This document shows, piece by piece, positions 5,204-32,696 of a stretch of DNA of 32,889 nucleotides (its first letter is position 1; the number at the start of each line of letters is the position of its first letter). Where the stretch lies: positions 1-32,889 of the forward strand of contig JASHOP010000072.1 in assembly GCA_030041075.1 (NCBI GenBank). The letters are read 5' to 3'. The stretch is from Thermoplasmata archaeon. GTDB lineage: Archaea > Thermoplasmatota > Thermoplasmata > Lutacidiplasmatales > UBA184. The position numbers and the translations under genes were made by a program. The notes beneath the pieces are model-generated. The model saw only the letters and a program-made list of their open reading frames with translations. It was not told where the DNA came from and did no database searches.

Positions 5204-5452
5204 ATGCTTCGGGAGACGACGTTCGCGGTCGGGGGCGGCCTGACGATCGGGCTCGGCGTCGCGCTCCTGGCGGGCCTCTACGCGGCCGGCGCCGGCCTCG
5301 TCTACTTCGAGGCCTGGCTCGCCGGGGGGATCGCGATCGGGCTCGGAGCGTTCTTCGTCCACGTCGGGCGGGACGAGGGCCGGGTCCGCCGGGAGGAGCT
5401 TCGCGCCCTCGATCCGGGGGCGGACCCGCCGCTCCCGCCTCCCTCGCGATGA
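5204..5452 (+). CDS. small two-TM membrane protein
   Basis: MLRETTFAVGGGLTIGLGVALLAGLYAAGAGLVYFEAWLAGGIAIGLGAFFVHVGRDEGR... Confidence 0.5.
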   Translation: MLRETTFAVGGGLTIGLGVALLAGLYAAGAGLVYFEAWLAGGIAIGLGAFFVHVGRDEGRVRREELRALDPGADPPLPPPSR

Positions 5453-5505: not shown

Positions 5506-5615
5506 GGCCGGGATGGGGTAGCTTGGTTATCCTGGGGGACTGTGGATCCCTCGACCCGGGTTCAAATCGACGGGGGGAGCACCCCCTCGTCGGGAGAGTC
5601 TCGGTCCCGGCCCCA
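5506..5615 (+). tRNA. tRNA-His (anticodon GTG at 5542-5544), CCA encoded, interrupted by a ~32-nt intron in the T-arm (about 5568-5599, +/-1 nt)
   Basis: 7-bp acceptor GCCGGGA(5507-5513)/TCCCGGC(5605-5611), G-1 at 5506 and discriminator C73 at 5612 (His identity), CCA 5613-5615. Anticodon arm GGGGA-CTGTGGA-TCCCT. T-stem CCGGG(5556-5560)/CTCGG(5600-5604) with TTCAAAT. The insert contains a strong hairpin CGACGGGGGG..CCCCCTCGTCG. Confidence 0.85.
5568..5599 (+). other. putative tRNA intron (32 nt) within the T-loop/T-stem 3' side
   Basis: Removing these 32 nt restores a complete T-arm and acceptor stem. Boundaries are ambiguous by 1 nt on each side because TC is repeated at both junctions. Confidence 0.75.
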
Positions 5616-5618
5616 TCG

Positions 5619-6485
5619 TTACCGGGTTGAGGGGCGACGCGCGCGACCGGTCCGGCGCGGCTCCGGGCGCCGCGCAAGGCGCTCGAGGACCTCGGGAAGC
5701 TCGCCGAGGCGGTAGTCGGCCCACGCCGCCCCCCACCGCTTGAGGTCGTTGGGGGTCAGCGCCCAGCCGCTGAACCGGCTCGCCCGACCGATCGGAACGA
5801 CCCCCGGGGCGTCGCGCGCCGCCTCCATGTCGAACCGGGAGTCCCCGACGAGGAACATCCGGGCGCCCGGGTAGCGTCGACGATACTCCGCGAGGTGCTC
5901 CCGCTTCGTCCCGTCGGCGGAGCCGAGGACGTCCTCGAACCAGTAGCGCAGGCCCTCCCGCTCGAGGATCAGCTCCGCCATCTCGGTCTCCGCGCCGGTC
6001 GTCACCGAAAGCGTCCATCGGTCCGCGGCCAGCCGCTTGAGGAGCTTCGGGACGTCGGGGAACGGTTCCGCCCGGGCGTACGCCTCGGCGACCTTCCGTT
6101 GATGGAACGACCGGGCGGTCGCGGCCCGCAGGGCGGCGGGGGCGTCGGGGTAGAGCTGGGCGAGCTGGGCTTCGAACGGCATGCCGGTCGTCGCGAGATA
6201 GTGGATGCGGGCCTCGTCGGCCGCCGTCCCGAACGCGCCGTGCATGACGTCCGCCGCGACGGCGCTGATCAGGGCGAGGTCGTCGAGGATCGTCCCGTCG
6301 AGGTCGAACAGCACCACGCCCCGCGCCACGGTCCGCGGTGGCGGAGCCTCCCGGCGCGCCACGACCGGCCGGCTCAGCTCGGCGAACGAGCTGGTCGCCC
6401 GGACGACCGGCAGCGGGACCAGTACCGGGGGTCCGCCGGGACCGGTGGACGGGCCCGAGCTGCCGGGCCCGGTGGCGCGGTGCAT
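5619..6485 (-). CDS. HAD-superfamily hydrolase
   Basis: VVLFDLDGTILDDLALISAVAADVMHGAFG...LSVTTGAETEMAELILEREGL..WFEDVLGSADGTKREHLAEYRRRYPGARMFLVGDSRFDMEAARDA; HAD motifs I-IV. Start at 6485 supported by a TATA-like element (TTAAAT, 6507-6513) 26 nt upstream; track start is 6509. Confidence 0.8.
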   Translation of the reverse strand: MHRATGPGSSGPSTGPGGPPVLVPLPVVRATSSFAELSRPVVARREAPPPRTVARGVVLFDLDGTILDDLALISAVAADVMHGAFGTAADEARIHYLATTGMPFEAQLAQLYPDAPAALRAATARSFHQRKVAEAYARAEPFPDVPKLLKRLAADRWTLSVTTGAETEMAELILEREGLRYWFEDVLGSADGTKREHLAEYRRRYPGARMFLVGDSRFDMEAARDAPGVVPIGRASRFSGWALTPNDLKRWGAAWADYRLGELPEVLERLARRPEPRRTGRARRPSTR

Positions 6486-6572
6486 CCGGGGGCCGAGCCC
6501 TTCCCCCATTTAAGCCCCCGCGCCTCGCCGGGTCCGGGGGCGTCCTACCGATTCCCCCGGGGCAGGGCGGCG

Positions 6573-23871: not shown

Positions 23872-25011
23872 CTACCCGATCCCCATCGACGCGAGCTTCT
23901 CGGGGAGGTAGCGGTCGGTGACGTAGTTTAGGCCGTACTTGGCGAGCGACTGCTGCTCCGCCTTCTTCCCGTTGCGGAGCATCAGCTCGATCTCGGCGCG
24001 CCACTCGGCGGTCGCGAACCGCGGGTCGGTCAGCTCGGTCTGGAGCGCGCGCACGTCCTGCTCCGAGAGCTTGTCGGACGGGAGGTCGTAGTTCTCGATA
24101 TCGGAGGCGGTCACGCCGAGGAACTCCGCGGCGGGGGTCGCGAGGTAGCTCGACAGGTGGGCGGTCTTGATCGCGCCGTAGGCGACGCTCGCGAAGATCC
24201 GGAACGACCACGGGTCGCCGTCCGTGAAGACGACCACCGGGAGCTTGAGCTCGTCGGAGATCCTCCGCAGGAACCGCCGCGTCGAGCGCGCCGGCTGGCC
24301 CTTCAAGTGGACGAGGAGTGCGTCGTGCTTCTCGTCGAACCCGTTCTCCGCGAGCCGGTCGACCATCCCCCCGCACTCGATCGCGATCACGAACTTCGCG
24401 TTCGTCCCGACGAACTCGATCTTCTCCTTCTCGACGTTGAACGGGAGCGCGTAGCCTCCGTCCCCGACGTCGTCCCGGCAGTTGAACCGCTTGACGAGCC
24501 CCTTGCGGTTCTTCTCCTTGAGCGTGAGGTCGCCGATCACGGACGCCCCGTTCTCCTCGGGGTGGAGGCGGAAATCCTCCCGCAGGCGCTCGCACATCAC
24601 CTCCAAATCCTCGATGAGGAGGTTCGACTCGTCCTCGCTGTGGAACTTCGCGTCGTCCCACCCCTCGCTGATGTAGTAGAGCTCGCGCAGGGTGGATGTC
24701 TTCTGGTCCGCGGCCATCTCGTTGATGAAGTCGACGACGCAGAACGTCCGCAGGAGCATCAGCGCCCCGTCGAGCTTGCGGGCGCTGCGCGTCCCCATCG
24801 CTTTCCCGAGCCTCCAGACGCCGTCGCGCGACTGGAACGCGAGGTTCTGCTTCGTCCTCAGCGGGAGGCGCATCCGGGGGATCTCGCCCCGGCGGAGCTG
24901 GTCGTAGATCTGCCGGGCGAGGTCGACGGTCGGGGTGAGCGCGTCGGCGCGGACCGGGGCCGCGGGCTCGTCAGTCCTCTTCGCGGACGCCCCCGCTCGC
25001 TTCGGCGGCAT
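23872..25011 (-). CDS. top6A: DNA topoisomerase VI subunit A (Spo11-like)
   Basis: [17 protein letters not shown]...[45 protein letters not shown]...[81 protein letters not shown]; catalytic LREL(Y)Y, TOPRIM E and DGDPW. Confidence 0.96.
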
Positions 25012-26992
25012 CGTAGTCCACCTCCTCCTCGGTCGCGCCGGACGTCGCGCTCTCCTGAGCGGCGACCTCGGCGGCCTCGACGATCGTGCGGGGAAGCCGG
25101 ACCTCCCAGTCGCCCGGGAGCGGGTCGGCGCCCAGGAGGTGCGCCTCGTCGATCCCGGCGACGTACCAGTCGAAGTCGTTGGCCTCGACCTCGGATTTCG
25201 GCGGGAACGAGGCGGTGAGGGTCGTCCGCGCGTTCGGAAGGAGCTTCGGCAACGTCCACCACGCCCGTCCCAGCGCCGGCTCCGTCCCGTCGGGGGCGGG
25301 GTCGAACCGCGCCGCGGCGAGGAGCTCGGGCGGGACCTCCGCGAACAGCTCGAGGACCCGGGGGCGCGGCGTAAAATTCGTGATCTCGACGGGGACCCGG
25401 ATCCCGTCGGGGCCGGGGTTCACGCGAGTCTCGACGTTCACGACGTCCATGATCCGGGTGATCACCGGGGTCAGGTCGGGGACCGGCTTCGCGACCATGC
25501 GGCTCGCCCGCTCCGCGAGCTTCGGGAGGATCCGCTGGATGATCGCGAACTTGTCGCTCGCGAACTCCCGACGGCCCTTGCGCGAGAGGTGGGTCCTCAG
25601 GTGCCGGGCGGCCGCCTGGAGCGCGAGCGTCAGCTCCTTGTCGATCTCGGGATCCTCGGCGATCGCCTCCTTCGCCTCGCTCGTGAACGGGACCTTCGTG
25701 GAGGCGACGTGGACGAGGAGAAGCGCCGGCCCGCTCGGGATCCCCGTGCCGCCCTTCTGGTCGAGGCCGTAACGCCGCCAGTCGACGCTCGCGATCGCGT
25801 TCGTGATCGCGCACGCCCCCTGCTGGAAGAGGAGGGGGACGCGGTTGGCGAACCGGAGGATCTGGACGGGCTGGTCGGACGGGAGCCCGCCGCCGTAGAC
25901 GAGCCCGACCTCGACCATGAACGGGAAGCCGCCCCGGACCTTCGGCGGCCGGCTCACGGGCGGGGCGAAGAACTCCGGCCGCAGCTCCCCGAGGACGTTG
26001 CGGAGCCCCCGCTTGATCAGGAGGGCCCCGATCGGGGAGAGGCAGTCCGAGGACGGGCTGACGAGCGGAGCCTCGTGGAGGGCGGTCAGGAGCCGCTCCT
26101 GGGCCTCGCCCTGGACCGACGCCGGCTTCGCGCCGGCCGCGAGTCCCGTCCGCTCGAGGAGCTCCTTGGCCGCGCGCGCGCTGACCCCCTGGAGGTCCTT
26201 CGCGAGGAACTCCCCGAGCGTCGGGCGCCGGCTTGCCTTGAGGAGCGAGCCGAGCTCGCCCAGCTCGAGGCCGTACGGGTGCGGGAGCGTCTCCTTCGCC
26301 GGCGGCGGAAGGTCGGTCGTCGCCCGCTCGAACGTGACCCGGGTCCCGTCCGGCTCGACCAGCACGATCCGGGCGTGCGGGTTGACGATCGCGGTCCCCC
26401 GGAGGTACTCGAACGGGGACTGGCGCCCCCGGAGGTACCGTGCCTTGAGCTCGATCTCGACTCGCGTGCCGTGCGGGCGGTCCCAGAGGACGACGTCTTC
26501 CGAGTCGACGCGCGGCTGGTTGCGTTGCGTGTCGAGGAAGATGTCGAGGACGTGGGCGGTGTCCTCCTCCTCGACCTTGGAGGTGATCCGCGTCGGGCGG
26601 GCGGTCGTCAGGTTGGCGTACAGGACCGCGGCGGAGATCCCGATCCCCTGCTGGCCGCGGGCCTGCCGGTGGGAGTAGAACCTCGATCCGTAGAGGAGCT
26701 TCCCGAAGACGTTCGGGATCTCCCGGCGGAGGATCCCGGGCCCGTTGTCGGAGACGGCGACCCGGAAGCGGTCGTCCTTCCGCTTCTCGATCTCGACCGT
26801 GAGCTCGGGGAGGATCGACGCCTCCTCCGCGGCATCGAGACCGTTGTCGACCGCCTCCTTCACCGTCGTGAGGAGGGCCCGCTGGAGGTTGTCGAACCCC
26901 AGGATCTGGCGGTTCCGCTCGAAGAACTCCGCGACCGATATCTCGCGCTGCTTCGCGGCGAGCTGCTGGGCGATCGTCGGGCGAGGAGGCAC
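24971..26992 (-). CDS. top6B: DNA topoisomerase VI subunit B
   Basis: IAQQLAAKQREISVAEFFERNRQILGFDNLQRALLTTVKEAVDNGLDAAEEASILPELTVEI...VAVSDNGPGILRREIPNVFGKLLYGSRFYSHRQARGQQGIGISAAVLYANLTT; GHKL ATPase. GTG start; 41-nt overlap with top6A. Confidence 0.96.
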   Translation of the reverse strand: MPPRPTIAQQLAAKQREISVAEFFERNRQILGFDNLQRALLTTVKEAVDNGLDAAEEASILPELTVEIEKRKDDRFRVAVSDNGPGILRREIPNVFGKLLYGSRFYSHRQARGQQGIGISAAVLYANLTTARPTRITSKVEEEDTAHVLDIFLDTQRNQPRVDSEDVVLWDRPHGTRVEIELKARYLRGRQSPFEYLRGTAIVNPHARIVLVEPDGTRVTFERATTDLPPPAKETLPHPYGLELGELGSLLKASRRPTLGEFLAKDLQGVSARAAKELLERTGLAAGAKPASVQGEAQERLLTALHEAPLVSPSSDCLSPIGALLIKRGLRNVLGELRPEFFAPPVSRPPKVRGGFPFMVEVGLVYGGGLPSDQPVQILRFANRVPLLFQQGACAITNAIASVDWRRYGLDQKGGTGIPSGPALLLVHVASTKVPFTSEAKEAIAEDPEIDKELTLALQAAARHLRTHLSRKGRREFASDKFAIIQRILPKLAERASRMVAKPVPDLTPVITRIMDVVNVETRVNPGPDGIRVPVEITNFTPRPRVLELFAEVPPELLAAARFDPAPDGTEPALGRAWWTLPKLLPNARTTLTASFPPKSEVEANDFDWYVAGIDEAHLLGADPLPGDWEVRLPRTIVEAAEVAAQESATSGATEEEVDYDAAEASGGVREED

Positions 26993-28595: not shown

Positions 28596-31500
28596 GTGTC
28601 GATGGAATCCACGGACGGAACGTCAGGCCCCTCGCCCACTCCGCCACGGCCCAAGCCCCGCCTTTCGCCGGGGGCTGTGGGGGGCATCGTGGCGGTCGTG
28701 CTTGCCGTCATCGTCGTCCTCTCGCTGATGTTCGCCGGGCTGATCCCGGGAATCCACCCGTTCAAGACGTCCTCGAGTCCCTCCACGCCAACCTACGACG
28801 TGAACTTCACCGAATCCGGCCTCCCCTCGGCGACGTCCTGGTCGGTGACGTTGGACGGAGCGACAACGCCCTCGACCGCCTCGACGATCTCCTTCAGCGA
28901 GCCCAACGGGGTCTACGCGTACACCGTCGGTACCGTGACGGGCTACGAGAGTCGACCCGTGAGCGGGTCGGTGACCGTCTCCGGAGTCGCCCAGGTGATC
29001 GCCGTGGCGTTCGAGCCCACCCTCGAGAGCACGCTGAGCTCCAGCGCGTCGACGACCCAAGTAGGAGCGGCGGTCGTTCTCACGATCGGCCTTTCCGGAG
29101 GGTTCTCTCCGGAAACGTGGACCCTTACGGAGAACGGTTCCTCGGCGAACCTTTCGGGCGTGACCTCGGACCACTACACTTTCGCTCCTGCGCACCCCGG
29201 TAGCTACACGTTCTACCTCAATGCGACGGACGGGGTGGACGCCACCGCCCGCGCGTCGACCACGGTGACCGTCCGTCCCGCGCTCGAGGCGGAGCTGAGC
29301 GCGAGCCCGCCGACGACCCAGGTGGGAGGGACCTCGACGCTGACCCTTGCGTTCTCCGGCGGGGTCGCCCCGGTCGCCTGGACGCTTGCCGAGAACGGCT
29401 CGTCGGCCAATCTGACCGGCGCGAGCGGCGGGCACTTCACCTTCCGCCCCGCGGAGGCGGCCACCTACACGTTCTACCTCAACGCCACGGACCACGCCGG
29501 AAGCGTGTCGGACGTCACCGCGACGGTCACGGTAGAGCCGGCGCTTGTCGCGACCCTTTCCGCGAGCCCGACGTCGGTGCCGGTGGGTAAGACCTCGACC
29601 GTCACACTCGGATTCTCGGGCGGGGTGAGCCCGATCTCGTGGACCCTTACCGAGAACGGTTCGGCCGCGAACCTCTCCGGAGCGTCGAACGGGCAGTACC
29701 TGTTCGGCCCGGTCGCTGCCGGGACGTACACGTTCTACCTCAACGCGACCGACGCCGTGGGCAGCGTCGCGAATGCCACGACGGAGGTCTCCGTGACGCC
29801 GGGACTGCTCTCCACGCTCAGCGCGAGCCTGGCCACGACGCAGATGGGCGTGAACTCGACGCTGACGGTCGGCTTCGTCGGCGGCGTGCCGCCTTCGTTC
29901 TGGACGCTCGAGGTGAACGGATCGGTCGCCAACCTGACGGCCGTGGGCGACCAGTACACGTTCGTTCCGCCGGCCCCGGGAACCTACACATTCTACCTTA
30001 ACGCGACGGACGCGGGGGGGAACTGGTCCAACGTCACGACGACCGTGACGGTGGTGCCGGCGCTCGCGGTGACGCTCTCCCCGAGCTCGACGTTGATCTC
30101 CACCTCGAAGACCTTGACGCTCACGCTCGGGTTCTCGGGCGGCGTACTCCCGGTGCAGTGGACGTTGGAAGAGAACGGATCGAGCGCGAACCTCTCAGGA
30201 GTCGAGCTCGACGCCTACGTCTTTGCTCCCACCGGGGCCGGTACCTACACGTTCTACCTGAACGCGACCGATACAGTCGGCAGCGTCAGTCAGACGAACA
30301 CGACCGTCAAGGTCGTGCCGGGGCTCCGGGCCAGCCTGACCGCGAACCCGGCTCTCACCGAGGTCGGGGAACCGTCGACGTTGACGATCGCGTTCCTGGG
30401 CCCGGTCCGCGCCGCCGCCTGGACGCTCGAGGAGAACGGCTCGTCCTCGAACCTTTCGGGGGTGACGGACGACCAGTATACCTTCGTTCCCACGGGCCCG
30501 GGGACGTACACGTTCTATCTCAACGCGACCGACGCGGGCGGGAACACGTCCAACGCCACCGCGACCGTGACGGTCGAACCGCCGCTTGGGGCCACGCTCA
30601 CGGCAAGCCCGTCGTCGACCACGATCGGGACCCCCTCGACCCTGACGCTCGGATTCTCGGGAGGAGTGGCGCCGATCGCCTGGACGCTCGAGGAGAACGG
30701 CTCGAACGCGAACCTCTCGGGCGTCTCGGACGCGCGGTATCTCTTCCTCCCGACCGCCCCGGGGACGTACACGTTCTATCTCAACGCCACGGACTACGTC
30801 GGCAGCATCGCGAGCGCCACGGCCACCGTCTCGGTCTCCGCGAGCGTCCCGTACGCCGTCACGTTCACCGAAACCGGGCTCTCGACGGCGACGCCGTGGA
30901 CGGTGACGCTCGGGGGCGTCTCCGACACGTCGACCGGCAGCTCGCTCTCGATCGATCTGCCGAACGGGAGCTACGACTTCACCGCCGGGGCGTCCGGCTA
31001 CACCGGGTCGCCCGGGTTCGGCCCGCTCATCGTGGCGGGGAGCCCGGTCGGGCAGTCAGTGCGCTTCACCCGGGCGGTCTCCGTCGGGGACTACACTCTC
31101 TCGTTCACCCAAACGGGGTTGAACAACTCTACCGCGTGGGCCCTCGAGGTCACGGAGAATCTCTCCGGGACCCTCTACGGCGCGGCCCAGGGCGGCGAGG
31201 GAAGCACGATCGAGTTCGCCGTCCCCAACGGCACCTACGCGTGGGTCGCCGAGAACGAGACCAACTACACCGTCGTCCCCGGCGGCGGGAGCATCACGAT
31301 CGACGGCCACGACGAGGCCCAGTCGATCGTCTACGAGCCGAGTTACGACGTGAACTTCACGGCCACCGGCCTACCCTACGGAACGATCTGGAGCGTGGAG
31401 ATCGGAGGCATGATGCAGAACCTGAGCTCCTACGACAACGCGTCGTTCGCCCTGCCCAACGGGACGTACAACTTCCGCGCGAACTCGACCGGCTTTTCCG

Positions 31501-32696
31501 CGGACCCGGATTCGGGAAAGATCACGGTGAACGGCCAGTCCGTCAACGAGACGATTGTGTTCACGCAGGGGTACACGTACTCCGTGAGCTTCTCGGAGAC
31601 CGGTCTCGCGTTCGGCGACTTCTGGACGGTCTACCTGGACGGGCAGGTGCAGTTCGGTCTCGCGGGGATCTCGGGCGATATCACGTTCGCCGAGGCGAAC
31701 GGGACCTACGGCTTCACGGCGTACCCGGCCGACGGGTACATCGTGTCGCCGGCGTTCGGTCCGGTCGTCGTTGCGGGAGCCGCCGTCTCGCTGACGCTCA
31801 CGTTCTCCGTCCCGACGACGTTCCCGGTGACGTTCACGGAGTCGGGCCTGCCCGCGGGAACCTACTGGTACGTGAATCTCAACGACTCGGAAGAGTATTC
31901 CGATACGACGACGGTCGAGTTCAACGAGACGAACGGCGTCTACAACTTCGCGATCGGCGCGGAAGTGGAGGCGTACTCGATCAGCCCGGCCGCCGGGTCG
32001 ATCGCGGTCTCGGGGGGCGCCGCCGGTCAGGCCGTGACGTTCACCCAGGAAGCGACGTATCCCCTCACCGTCTCGGAGACCGGCCTCCCGAGCAACGCAC
32101 CGTGGGAACTGGAGGTCGGGGGGCTCGACGGAGGCGGGAGCTTCTTCAACGAGTCGACGGGCACGACCGCGGTCGTAGAGGTCCCCGACGGCTACTATTC
32201 GTTCGAAGTCGACGCTATCGCGAGCCCGGGCTACGTCGGGTCGCCGTCGTTCGGGAGCGTGGAGGTCGCCGGCCAGGGCGTCATCACGTCGGTGACGTTC
32301 GTCTACGCTCCGTCGGACCATCTCGTGACGTTCCTGCTGCTGAACGACTTCGGCGGGGTCCTGAGCGAGGAGCTCGGGGCCGTGCCGAACGGATCGGCCT
32401 GGACGGTGACGATCGACGGGGTCACCCAGACCACGATCGGGGAGGCGGTCACCTTCCTCGTGCCGAACGGCACCTACGCGTATTCGATCACGCCTCCCGT
32501 GGGGTACACCTCCTGGCCCAGCTCGGGCGTCGTCACGGTCAACTCCACGGCGTCCAGCCCCAGTTTCCTCGGGGCGGCCTACATCGAGCTCGACTTCCAC
32601 GCCTCGAGCGGCGGCGTCCCGATCTCCGGACTCGCCTCGGACGCGGCTCCCTGGCTTACCGCCCTGCGGGTCTCCCCGGCCCAGTTCTGGCGCTAG
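28596..32696 (+). CDS. giant N-terminally anchored surface protein with two repeat families
   Basis: GTG start; TM anchor GAVGGIVAVVLAVIVVLSLMFAGLIPGI; one 'DVNFTESGLPSATSWSVTLDG' module, seven ~87-aa PKD/Ig-like repeats, then about seven 'V.FTETGLP.GT.W.V...NGTY.F' modules; dense N-X-S/T sequons. Confidence 0.88.
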   Translation: MSMESTDGTSGPSPTPPRPKPRLSPGAVGGIVAVVLAVIVVLSLMFAGLIPGIHPFKTSSSPSTPTYDVNFTESGLPSATSWSVTLDGATTPSTASTISFSEPNGVYAYTVGTVTGYESRPVSGSVTVSGVAQVIAVAFEPTLESTLSSSASTTQVGAAVVLTIGLSGGFSPETWTLTENGSSANLSGVTSDHYTFAPAHPGSYTFYLNATDGVDATARASTTVTVRPALEAELSASPPTTQVGGTSTLTLAFSGGVAPVAWTLAENGSSANLTGASGGHFTFRPAEAATYTFYLNATDHAGSVSDVTATVTVEPALVATLSASPTSVPVGKTSTVTLGFSGGVSPISWTLTENGSAANLSGASNGQYLFGPVAAGTYTFYLNATDAVGSVANATTEVSVTPGLLSTLSASLATTQMGVNSTLTVGFVGGVPPSFWTLEVNGSVANLTAVGDQYTFVPPAPGTYTFYLNATDAGGNWSNVTTTVTVVPALAVTLSPSSTLISTSKTLTLTLGFSGGVLPVQWTLEENGSSANLSGVELDAYVFAPTGAGTYTFYLNATDTVGSVSQTNTTVKVVPGLRASLTANPALTEVGEPSTLTIAFLGPVRAAAWTLEENGSSSNLSGVTDDQYTFVPTGPGTYTFYLNATDAGGNTSNATATVTVEPPLGATLTASPSSTTIGTPSTLTLGFSGGVAPIAWTLEENGSNANLSGVSDARYLFLPTAPGTYTFYLNATDYVGSIASATATVSVSASVPYAVTFTETGLSTATPWTVTLGGVSDTSTGSSLSIDLPNGSYDFTAGASGYTGSPGFGPLIVAGSPVGQSVRFTRAVSVGDYTLSFTQTGLNNSTAWALEVTENLSGTLYGAAQGGEGSTIEFAVPNGTYAWVAENETNYTVVPGGGSITIDGHDEAQSIVYEPSYDVNFTATGLPYGTIWSVEIGGMMQNLSSYDNASFALPNGTYNFRANSTGFSADPDSGKITVNGQSVNETIVFTQGYTYSVSFSETGLAFGDFWTVYLDGQVQFGLAGISGDITFAEANGTYGFTAYPADGYIVSPAFGPVVVAGAAVSLTLTFSVPTTFPVTFTESGLPAGTYWYVNLNDSEEYSDTTTVEFNETNGVYNFAIGAEVEAYSISPAAGSIAVSGGAAGQAVTFTQEATYPLTVSETGLPSNAPWELEVGGLDGGGSFFNESTGTTAVVEVPDGYYSFEVDAIASPGYVGSPSFGSVEVAGQGVITSVTFVYAPSDHLVTFLLLNDFGGVLSEELGAVPNGSAWTVTIDGVTQTTIGEAVTFLVPNGTYAYSITPPVGYTSWPSSGVVTVNSTASSPSFLGAAYIELDFHASSGGVPISGLASDAAPWLTALRVSPAQFWR
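29022..30845 (+). repeat. seven tandem in-frame repeats of 261 nt (the fourth is 258 nt)
   Basis: Repeat starts at 29022, 29283, 29544, 29805, 30063, 30324 and 30585. Shared core WTLEENGSSANLSGV...YTF.P..PGTYTFYLNATD..GS...T.TV.P. Confidence 0.9.

Follow-up and report, generated by a model that had tools for sequence, protein, structure and literature searches.

A tRNA-His gene with a putative bulge-helix-bulge intron at T-loop position 59/60, an intron type found in about ten tRNA genes of Candidatus Lutacidiplasmatales

The window, meaning the whole 32,889-nucleotide stretch of Thermoplasmata DNA that was analysed, contains a tRNA-His(GTG) gene at 5506–5612, the T-loop of which was found by direct reading and comparison to be split by a 32-nt intron. 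All parts of the gene lie on the + strand. The 5′ exon (5506–5566) comprises G-1 (5506), the 5′ side of the acceptor stem, the D arm (5516–5533), the anticodon stem (5535–5539/5547–5551) closing the loop CTGTGGA with the anticodon GTG at 5542–5544, the 5′ side of the T stem and the bases T54 to A59. The intron, TCGACGGGGGGAGCACCCCCTCGTCGGGAGAG, occupies 5567–5598 at position 59/60, and is followed by a 3′ exon (5599–5612) made up of T60, the 3′ sides of the T stem (5556–5560/5600–5604) and of the acceptor stem (5507–5513/5605–5611), and C73 at 5612. All four stems are intact, and the acceptor stem is paired at 7 of 7 positions. ARAGORN called a tRNA-His(gtg) once the 32 nt were excised, whereas the unspliced gene yielded no tRNA with either ARAGORN or Rfam cmscan. 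The identity proposed in the initial annotation on the basis of G-1, GTG, C73 and a perfect 7-bp acceptor is therefore borne out by direct reading and by ARAGORN on the spliced gene. The same annotation also described an encoded CCA; these letters are indeed present at 5613–5615 (+) after C73, but are not a conserved part of the gene. Because the corresponding triplet varies among relatives (CTA, CTC, CTG and others), the CCA is probably incidental. A permuted or split tRNA-His was also considered and is ruled out, both exons being contiguous and in order.

The tRNA-His gene sits between a + strand open reading frame ending near 5451 and a − strand HAD-hydrolase-like open reading frame (5619–6509). 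Elsewhere in the window, positions 28596–32696 encode a large protein of surface type, in which repeats resembling ESGLPxGTxWxVxxxG are numerous, and adjacent genes resembling topoisomerase VI subunits A and B lie at 23872–26992 (−), supporting an archaeal source. The host setting is that of an acid-soil archaeon.

The 5′ half of tRNA-His was searched for in 106 genomes of the order. Every one of the 81 tRNA-His genes read from the family of the window (Ca. Lutacidiplasmatales, Thermoplasmatota) contained the intron, 28–33 nt in length, and the exons were nearly invariant across the family. These 81 genomes are independent metagenome-assembled genomes (MAGs), one of them rated 100% complete. 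The family was placed in Ca. Lutacidiplasmatales through UBA184 and the AcS/SubAcS MAGs (PMC9287336), in a paper that identified tRNAs by tRNAscan-SE and in the text of which the word "intron" is absent. In a second collection, 71 of 80 named loci, from Thermoplasmata MAGs with a few filed as "bacterium", carried the intron; the nine loci free of it belonged to eight Methanoregula/Methanoregulaceae MAGs and one "Euryarchaeota archaeon" MAG. The T-loop intron was likewise absent from nine tRNA-His genes of other Thermoplasmata families, which have a contiguous TTCAAAT and near-identical exons. Relatives and outgroups together fix the intron at 59/60 and not at 37/38. Two sister-family genes among these nine (family f3; L329, L330) have a canonical 37/38 intron of about 20 nt, and another sister-family tRNA-His (L328) has an apparently canonical and longer 37/38 intron of about 30 nt instead of a T-loop intron.

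Since T5567 is identical to T5599, the DNA alone permits two cut positions. Among 83 distinct homologous introns, the base equivalent to 5599 (T60) is invariably T, whereas the base equivalent to 5567 is variable (G 46, T 16, C 14, A 7; not T in 67 of 83), which places the predicted intron at 5567–5598 (AAA^T...G^T) and not at 5568–5599. The length and non-canonical T-arm position given in the initial annotation are retained, but its boundary at about 60/61 moves 1 nt upstream to 59/60. In the register obtained by comparison, which differs from that of minimum free energy (MFE) folding, the junction can be drawn as a bulge-helix-bulge (BHB) of 3 nt, 4 bp and 3 nt. The central helix would pair U54, U55, C56 and A57 on the exon side (5561–5564, +) with GGAG on the intron side (5593–5596, +), namely U54–G5596, U55–A5595, C56–G5594 and A57·G5593, and is flanked by a 5′ bulge AA^U (5565–5567, +) and a 3′ bulge AG^U (5597–5599, +). 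BHB geometry and the comparative boundary predict EndA cuts after 5566 and 5598, respectively. The remainder of the intron would form a hairpin, h′ (5568–5592, +; 5568–5577 with 5583–5592), as indicated by covariation across relatives. A perfect 4-bp/3-nt motif had not been seen in the initial annotation; a 3-4-3 motif is drawable after all, but the fourth pair in the window is indeed imperfect, being an A·G mismatch.

The pairing proposed for the central helix is recurrent. Positions 54, 55 and 56 are paired in 82, 83 and 83 of 83 His introns, respectively, and position 57 is found as A–U in 48, A·G in 33 and A·A in 2. Among 36 introns from many tRNAs, G57 stands opposite C in 10 of 10 cases and A57 opposite G, U or, once, A, and this exon–intron covariation supports the BHB register. 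In the h′ hairpin, changes on both sides were observed at 8 of 9 modelled pairs, and 660 pairs were formed, compared with 544 ± 8 when the arms were shuffled. The covariation score of the whole structure was 0.360, against 0.134 for shuffled and 0.076–0.128 for slid alignments; none of 500 shuffles attained any of the covariation measures, the shuffle control being one that ignores the relatedness of the sequences and the slid control one that retains it. The first h′ pair is missing in approximately 29% of His introns, so that many of the motifs are imperfect. Folding of the precursor, a check suggested in the initial annotation, did not yield the BHB register: for the T-arm of the window, single-sequence MFE folding favoured another register in which UUC pairs with GAG at 5596–5598, and the BHB register was likewise not returned for two further T-loop introns folded alone. 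Because of this, the predicted register rests on comparison and not on energy folding.

A covariance model built from the T-loop intron, home-made and with rough E-values, detected ten introns at 59/60 in the genome of the window (E<1e-3), all of them within tRNA genes: His-GTG, Glu-CTC, Asn-GTT, Ser-GCT, Arg-TCT, Ser-CGA, Asp-GTC, Ala-GGC, Gln-CTG and Leu-TAG. Ala-GGC (L261, ending at a contig edge) and Leu-TAG (L263) were identified by eye, their spliced forms being uncalled by ARAGORN. No intron-free copy of the ten anticodons was found among the RF00005 matches in this genome. The initial annotation, correct as to the T-arm intron of tRNA-His, had not noticed this recurrence in about ten tRNA genes. 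Nine of the ten tRNAs keep the intron also in two relatives from two genera (G042 and G023; Leu-TAG of G042 is an unconfirmed hand reading). All 56 family genomes of at least 85% completeness had 4–9 model matches at E≤1e-4, whereas elsewhere in the class 17 of 227 genomes had 1–3 each at E≤1e-4, these counts being lower bounds obtained with stricter filters than in the genome of the window. The family-wide matches and the nine tRNAs sharing the intron across relatives indicate that the spread to many tRNAs would be older than the diversification of the family. With ARAGORN and Rfam RF00005, most of these genes are missed or garbled, and the tRNA sets of such MAGs may therefore look incomplete.

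Several other tRNA genes deserve mention. The tRNA-Leu(TAG) gene (L263; G000:C24:18127–18174) has an unusual, short D-arm; the gene may have decayed or may contain some further anomaly. In the same genome, tRNA-Arg(GCG) (L025; region of G000:C98:4481–4548) has an apparent D-loop intron of approximately 34 nt, a second non-canonical position, for which the intron parse given by ARAGORN itself is implausible. tRNA-Leu(TAA) (L022; G000:C88:7805–7913) contains a canonical 24-nt intron at 37/38; no other canonical intron was seen in this genome. In a genome of another Thermoplasmata family (G225, family f17; L303, L307, L310 and L313), a few T-loop introns occur, but in other tRNAs (Met, Lys and Ser according to ARAGORN).

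The genome of the window contains one RtcB gene (E=2.9e-170) and one EndA gene, which encodes 354 amino acids with two PF01974 repeats in a single open reading frame and is homologous to the A. fulgidus (AFU 1R0V) and M. jannaschii (METJA 1A79) enzymes. EndA was found in 96 of 106 genomes of the order, nearly always with two PF01974 matches (three in 1 of 96), and its second repeat keeps the Tyr/His/Lys triad in a 23-member alignment (KYGxHF, HAxYL, VRK). These features identify a predicted α2-type enzyme, that is, a single polypeptide with two endonuclease repeats; among the PF01974 matches in the genomes of the order, no separate β subunit of the crenarchaeal (αβ)2 enzyme was found. The question of EndA family raised in the initial annotation is answered by this one fused α2-type gene, which is not of the heteromeric crenarchaeal type. 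No CSL/ASL insertion with its Lys was found ahead of the catalytic repeat core, where the protein aligns ungapped with M. jannaschii 1A79; the position of this loop was taken from PMC12397907 and from the start of the 3P1Z and 4FZ2 matches. The EndAs of sister families (L088, L089) appear to have the same architecture. Gain of a CSL/ASL-type loop as the driver was rejected, there being no insertion at that place and the sister-family enzymes appearing alike in architecture. According to two reviews, α2 and α4 enzymes are held to canonical BHB motifs or positions (PMC4033280, PMC4090602), and one of them names Korarchaeum as the only α2 archaeon with non-canonical tRNA introns (PMC4033280). A further review notes that, in full-length pre-tRNA, the A. 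fulgidus α2 enzyme is also able to cleave a BHL motif located at 37/38 (PMC6379350). Minimal BHB substrates are cleaved at 30 °C by the α2 enzyme of Ferroplasma, another member of the Thermoplasmatota (PMC8707768). On the simplest reading, the introns are unusual in position alone and have a near-canonical motif, so that no special enzyme is needed.

The reading proposed here, to which we assign a probability of about 95%, is that the window contains a tRNA-His gene with an archaeal BHB intron at 59/60, spliced by EndA and RtcB and belonging to an old, family-wide set. Excision restores the tRNA, a 3-4-3 motif can be drawn, and the genes of both enzymes are present, as for an EndA-spliced BHB intron. 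The anatomy, conservation and covariation of the intron and the enzyme gene content are direct observations, and the cutting and joining steps, as well as their timing within tRNA maturation, would follow established EndA and RtcB biochemistry. In the precursor, the BHB would consist of the T stem (h), a central helix of U54-U55-C56-R57 paired with the 3′ end of the intron, and the intron hairpin (h′). A homodimeric α2-type EndA would cut each 3-nt bulge between its second and third bases, at A5566^U5567 and G5598^U5599, and RtcB would ligate A59 to U60, restoring the normal T-loop TTCAAAT. An ordinary EndA/RtcB mechanism is suggested by the presence of RtcB and of a single two-repeat α2-type EndA free of a CSL/ASL insertion. 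Splicing probably precedes the elbow-dependent maturation steps, since the intron must be removed before the D-loop and the T-loop can form the elbow. Before Ca. Lutacidiplasmatales diversified, the set of introns would have become inserted at one T-loop position in about ten tRNA genes, where it would have been kept since.

Could the 32 nt instead be retained, in a tRNA-His that works unspliced with an enlarged T-loop? The stability of the intron hairpin would suit such a molecule, but a seven-base T-loop is required for contact between the D-loop and the T-loop, and the insert disrupts it. Moreover, the stem sequence varies freely while the pairing and the bulge-adjacent bases are kept, as recognition by EndA requires, and the genes for EndA and RtcB are at hand. 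Retention, which the initial annotation had named as an objection, is very improbable also in view of the nine outgroup tRNA-His genes with the normal contiguous loop. Slightly less credible still is that this copy is a pseudogene or assembly artefact and that an ordinary tRNA-His gene lies in another part of the genome. In favour of this stands the fragmented state of the assembly, which is 89% complete; however, a search for the intact second tRNA-His(GTG) envisaged in the initial annotation found none in this assembly, where the 5′ half had one match at ≤2 mismatches and no GTG tRNA was present among the RF00005 matches, and in G042, a relative rated 100% complete, the single 5′-half match is the intron-bearing copy. 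The intact acceptor, D, anticodon and T stems, the near-invariance of the exons and the occurrence of the intron in 81 independently assembled family genomes argue in the same direction.

Of greater weight, and still improbable, is the view that the T-loop introns are active mobile elements spreading between tRNA genes, as proposed for the Thermoproteales, and not old fixed introns. The ten introns are indeed all inserted at one position and have a 3′ motif in common. However, the mean alignment score is higher when one tRNA's introns are compared across genomes (0.29) than when introns of different tRNAs are compared, be it within a single genome (0.13) or between genomes (0.14), and nine tRNAs have the intron in all three family genomes compared. 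On these two grounds the spread appears old and not recent, with an ancient burst remaining compatible with the data.

What is unexpected about the proposed old set of EndA-spliced introns? As far as the open-access literature goes, and an earlier report being possible, what surprises is that a single type of T-loop intron recurs across a whole lineage beside an enzyme class that reviews confine to the canonical position. By the accepted rule, non-canonical tRNA introns are tied to heteromeric or loop-bearing EndAs, whereas a large Thermoplasmatota family has them throughout with a single EndA lacking the loop insertion, its sister-family EndA looking alike in architecture. Non-canonical position and non-canonical motif, two ideas often merged, are hence separable, and the system offers a direct test of whether the spread of introns needs a change of enzyme. 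As U54-U55-C56-R57 is nearly universal in tRNAs, any T-loop could contribute the exon strand of the central helix, a possible reason for the recurrence at 59/60. More speculatively, T-loop splicing would belong to the regular maturation of one fixed group of some ten tRNAs across the family, carried out by an α2 EndA free of an accessory loop, with 59/60 as a general landing site owing to the universal TTCR exon half, with splicing gating elbow formation, and with such tRNAs as possible intermediates towards 59/60-permuted tRNAs; this broader picture is tentative and, taken whole, rather doubtful.

Among known systems, the Thermoproteales (Pyrobaculum, Thermofilum) and other Crenarchaeota and Thaumarchaeota similarly carry, in many of their tRNA genes, short BHB introns at positions other than 37/38, but with a heterotetrameric (αβ)2 EndA, a CSL loop in Crenarchaeota and scattered positions (PMC3218864, PMC8450103); here, 59/60 predominates beside a single α2-type EndA that lacks the CSL insertion. 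The Atabeyarchaeia and Freyarchaeia (Asgard) are also described, in the part of the source consulted, as having numerous tRNA introns, often at non-canonical positions, although they are an unrelated lineage with an intron in 92–95% of tRNA genes (PMC11291895). The Euryarchaeota with canonical 37/38 BHB introns share the enzyme class (α4 or α2 EndA) and the 3-4-3 motif (PMC4090602), and differ in having one anticodon-loop intron in <10% of genes, against the T-loop of about ten tRNAs here. The permuted tRNAs of Thermofilum pendens and Cyanidioschyzon merolae have the same 59/60 junction with a BHB at the T-loop (PMC3218864), whereas the exons of the tRNA genes described here stand in normal order, with no permutation.
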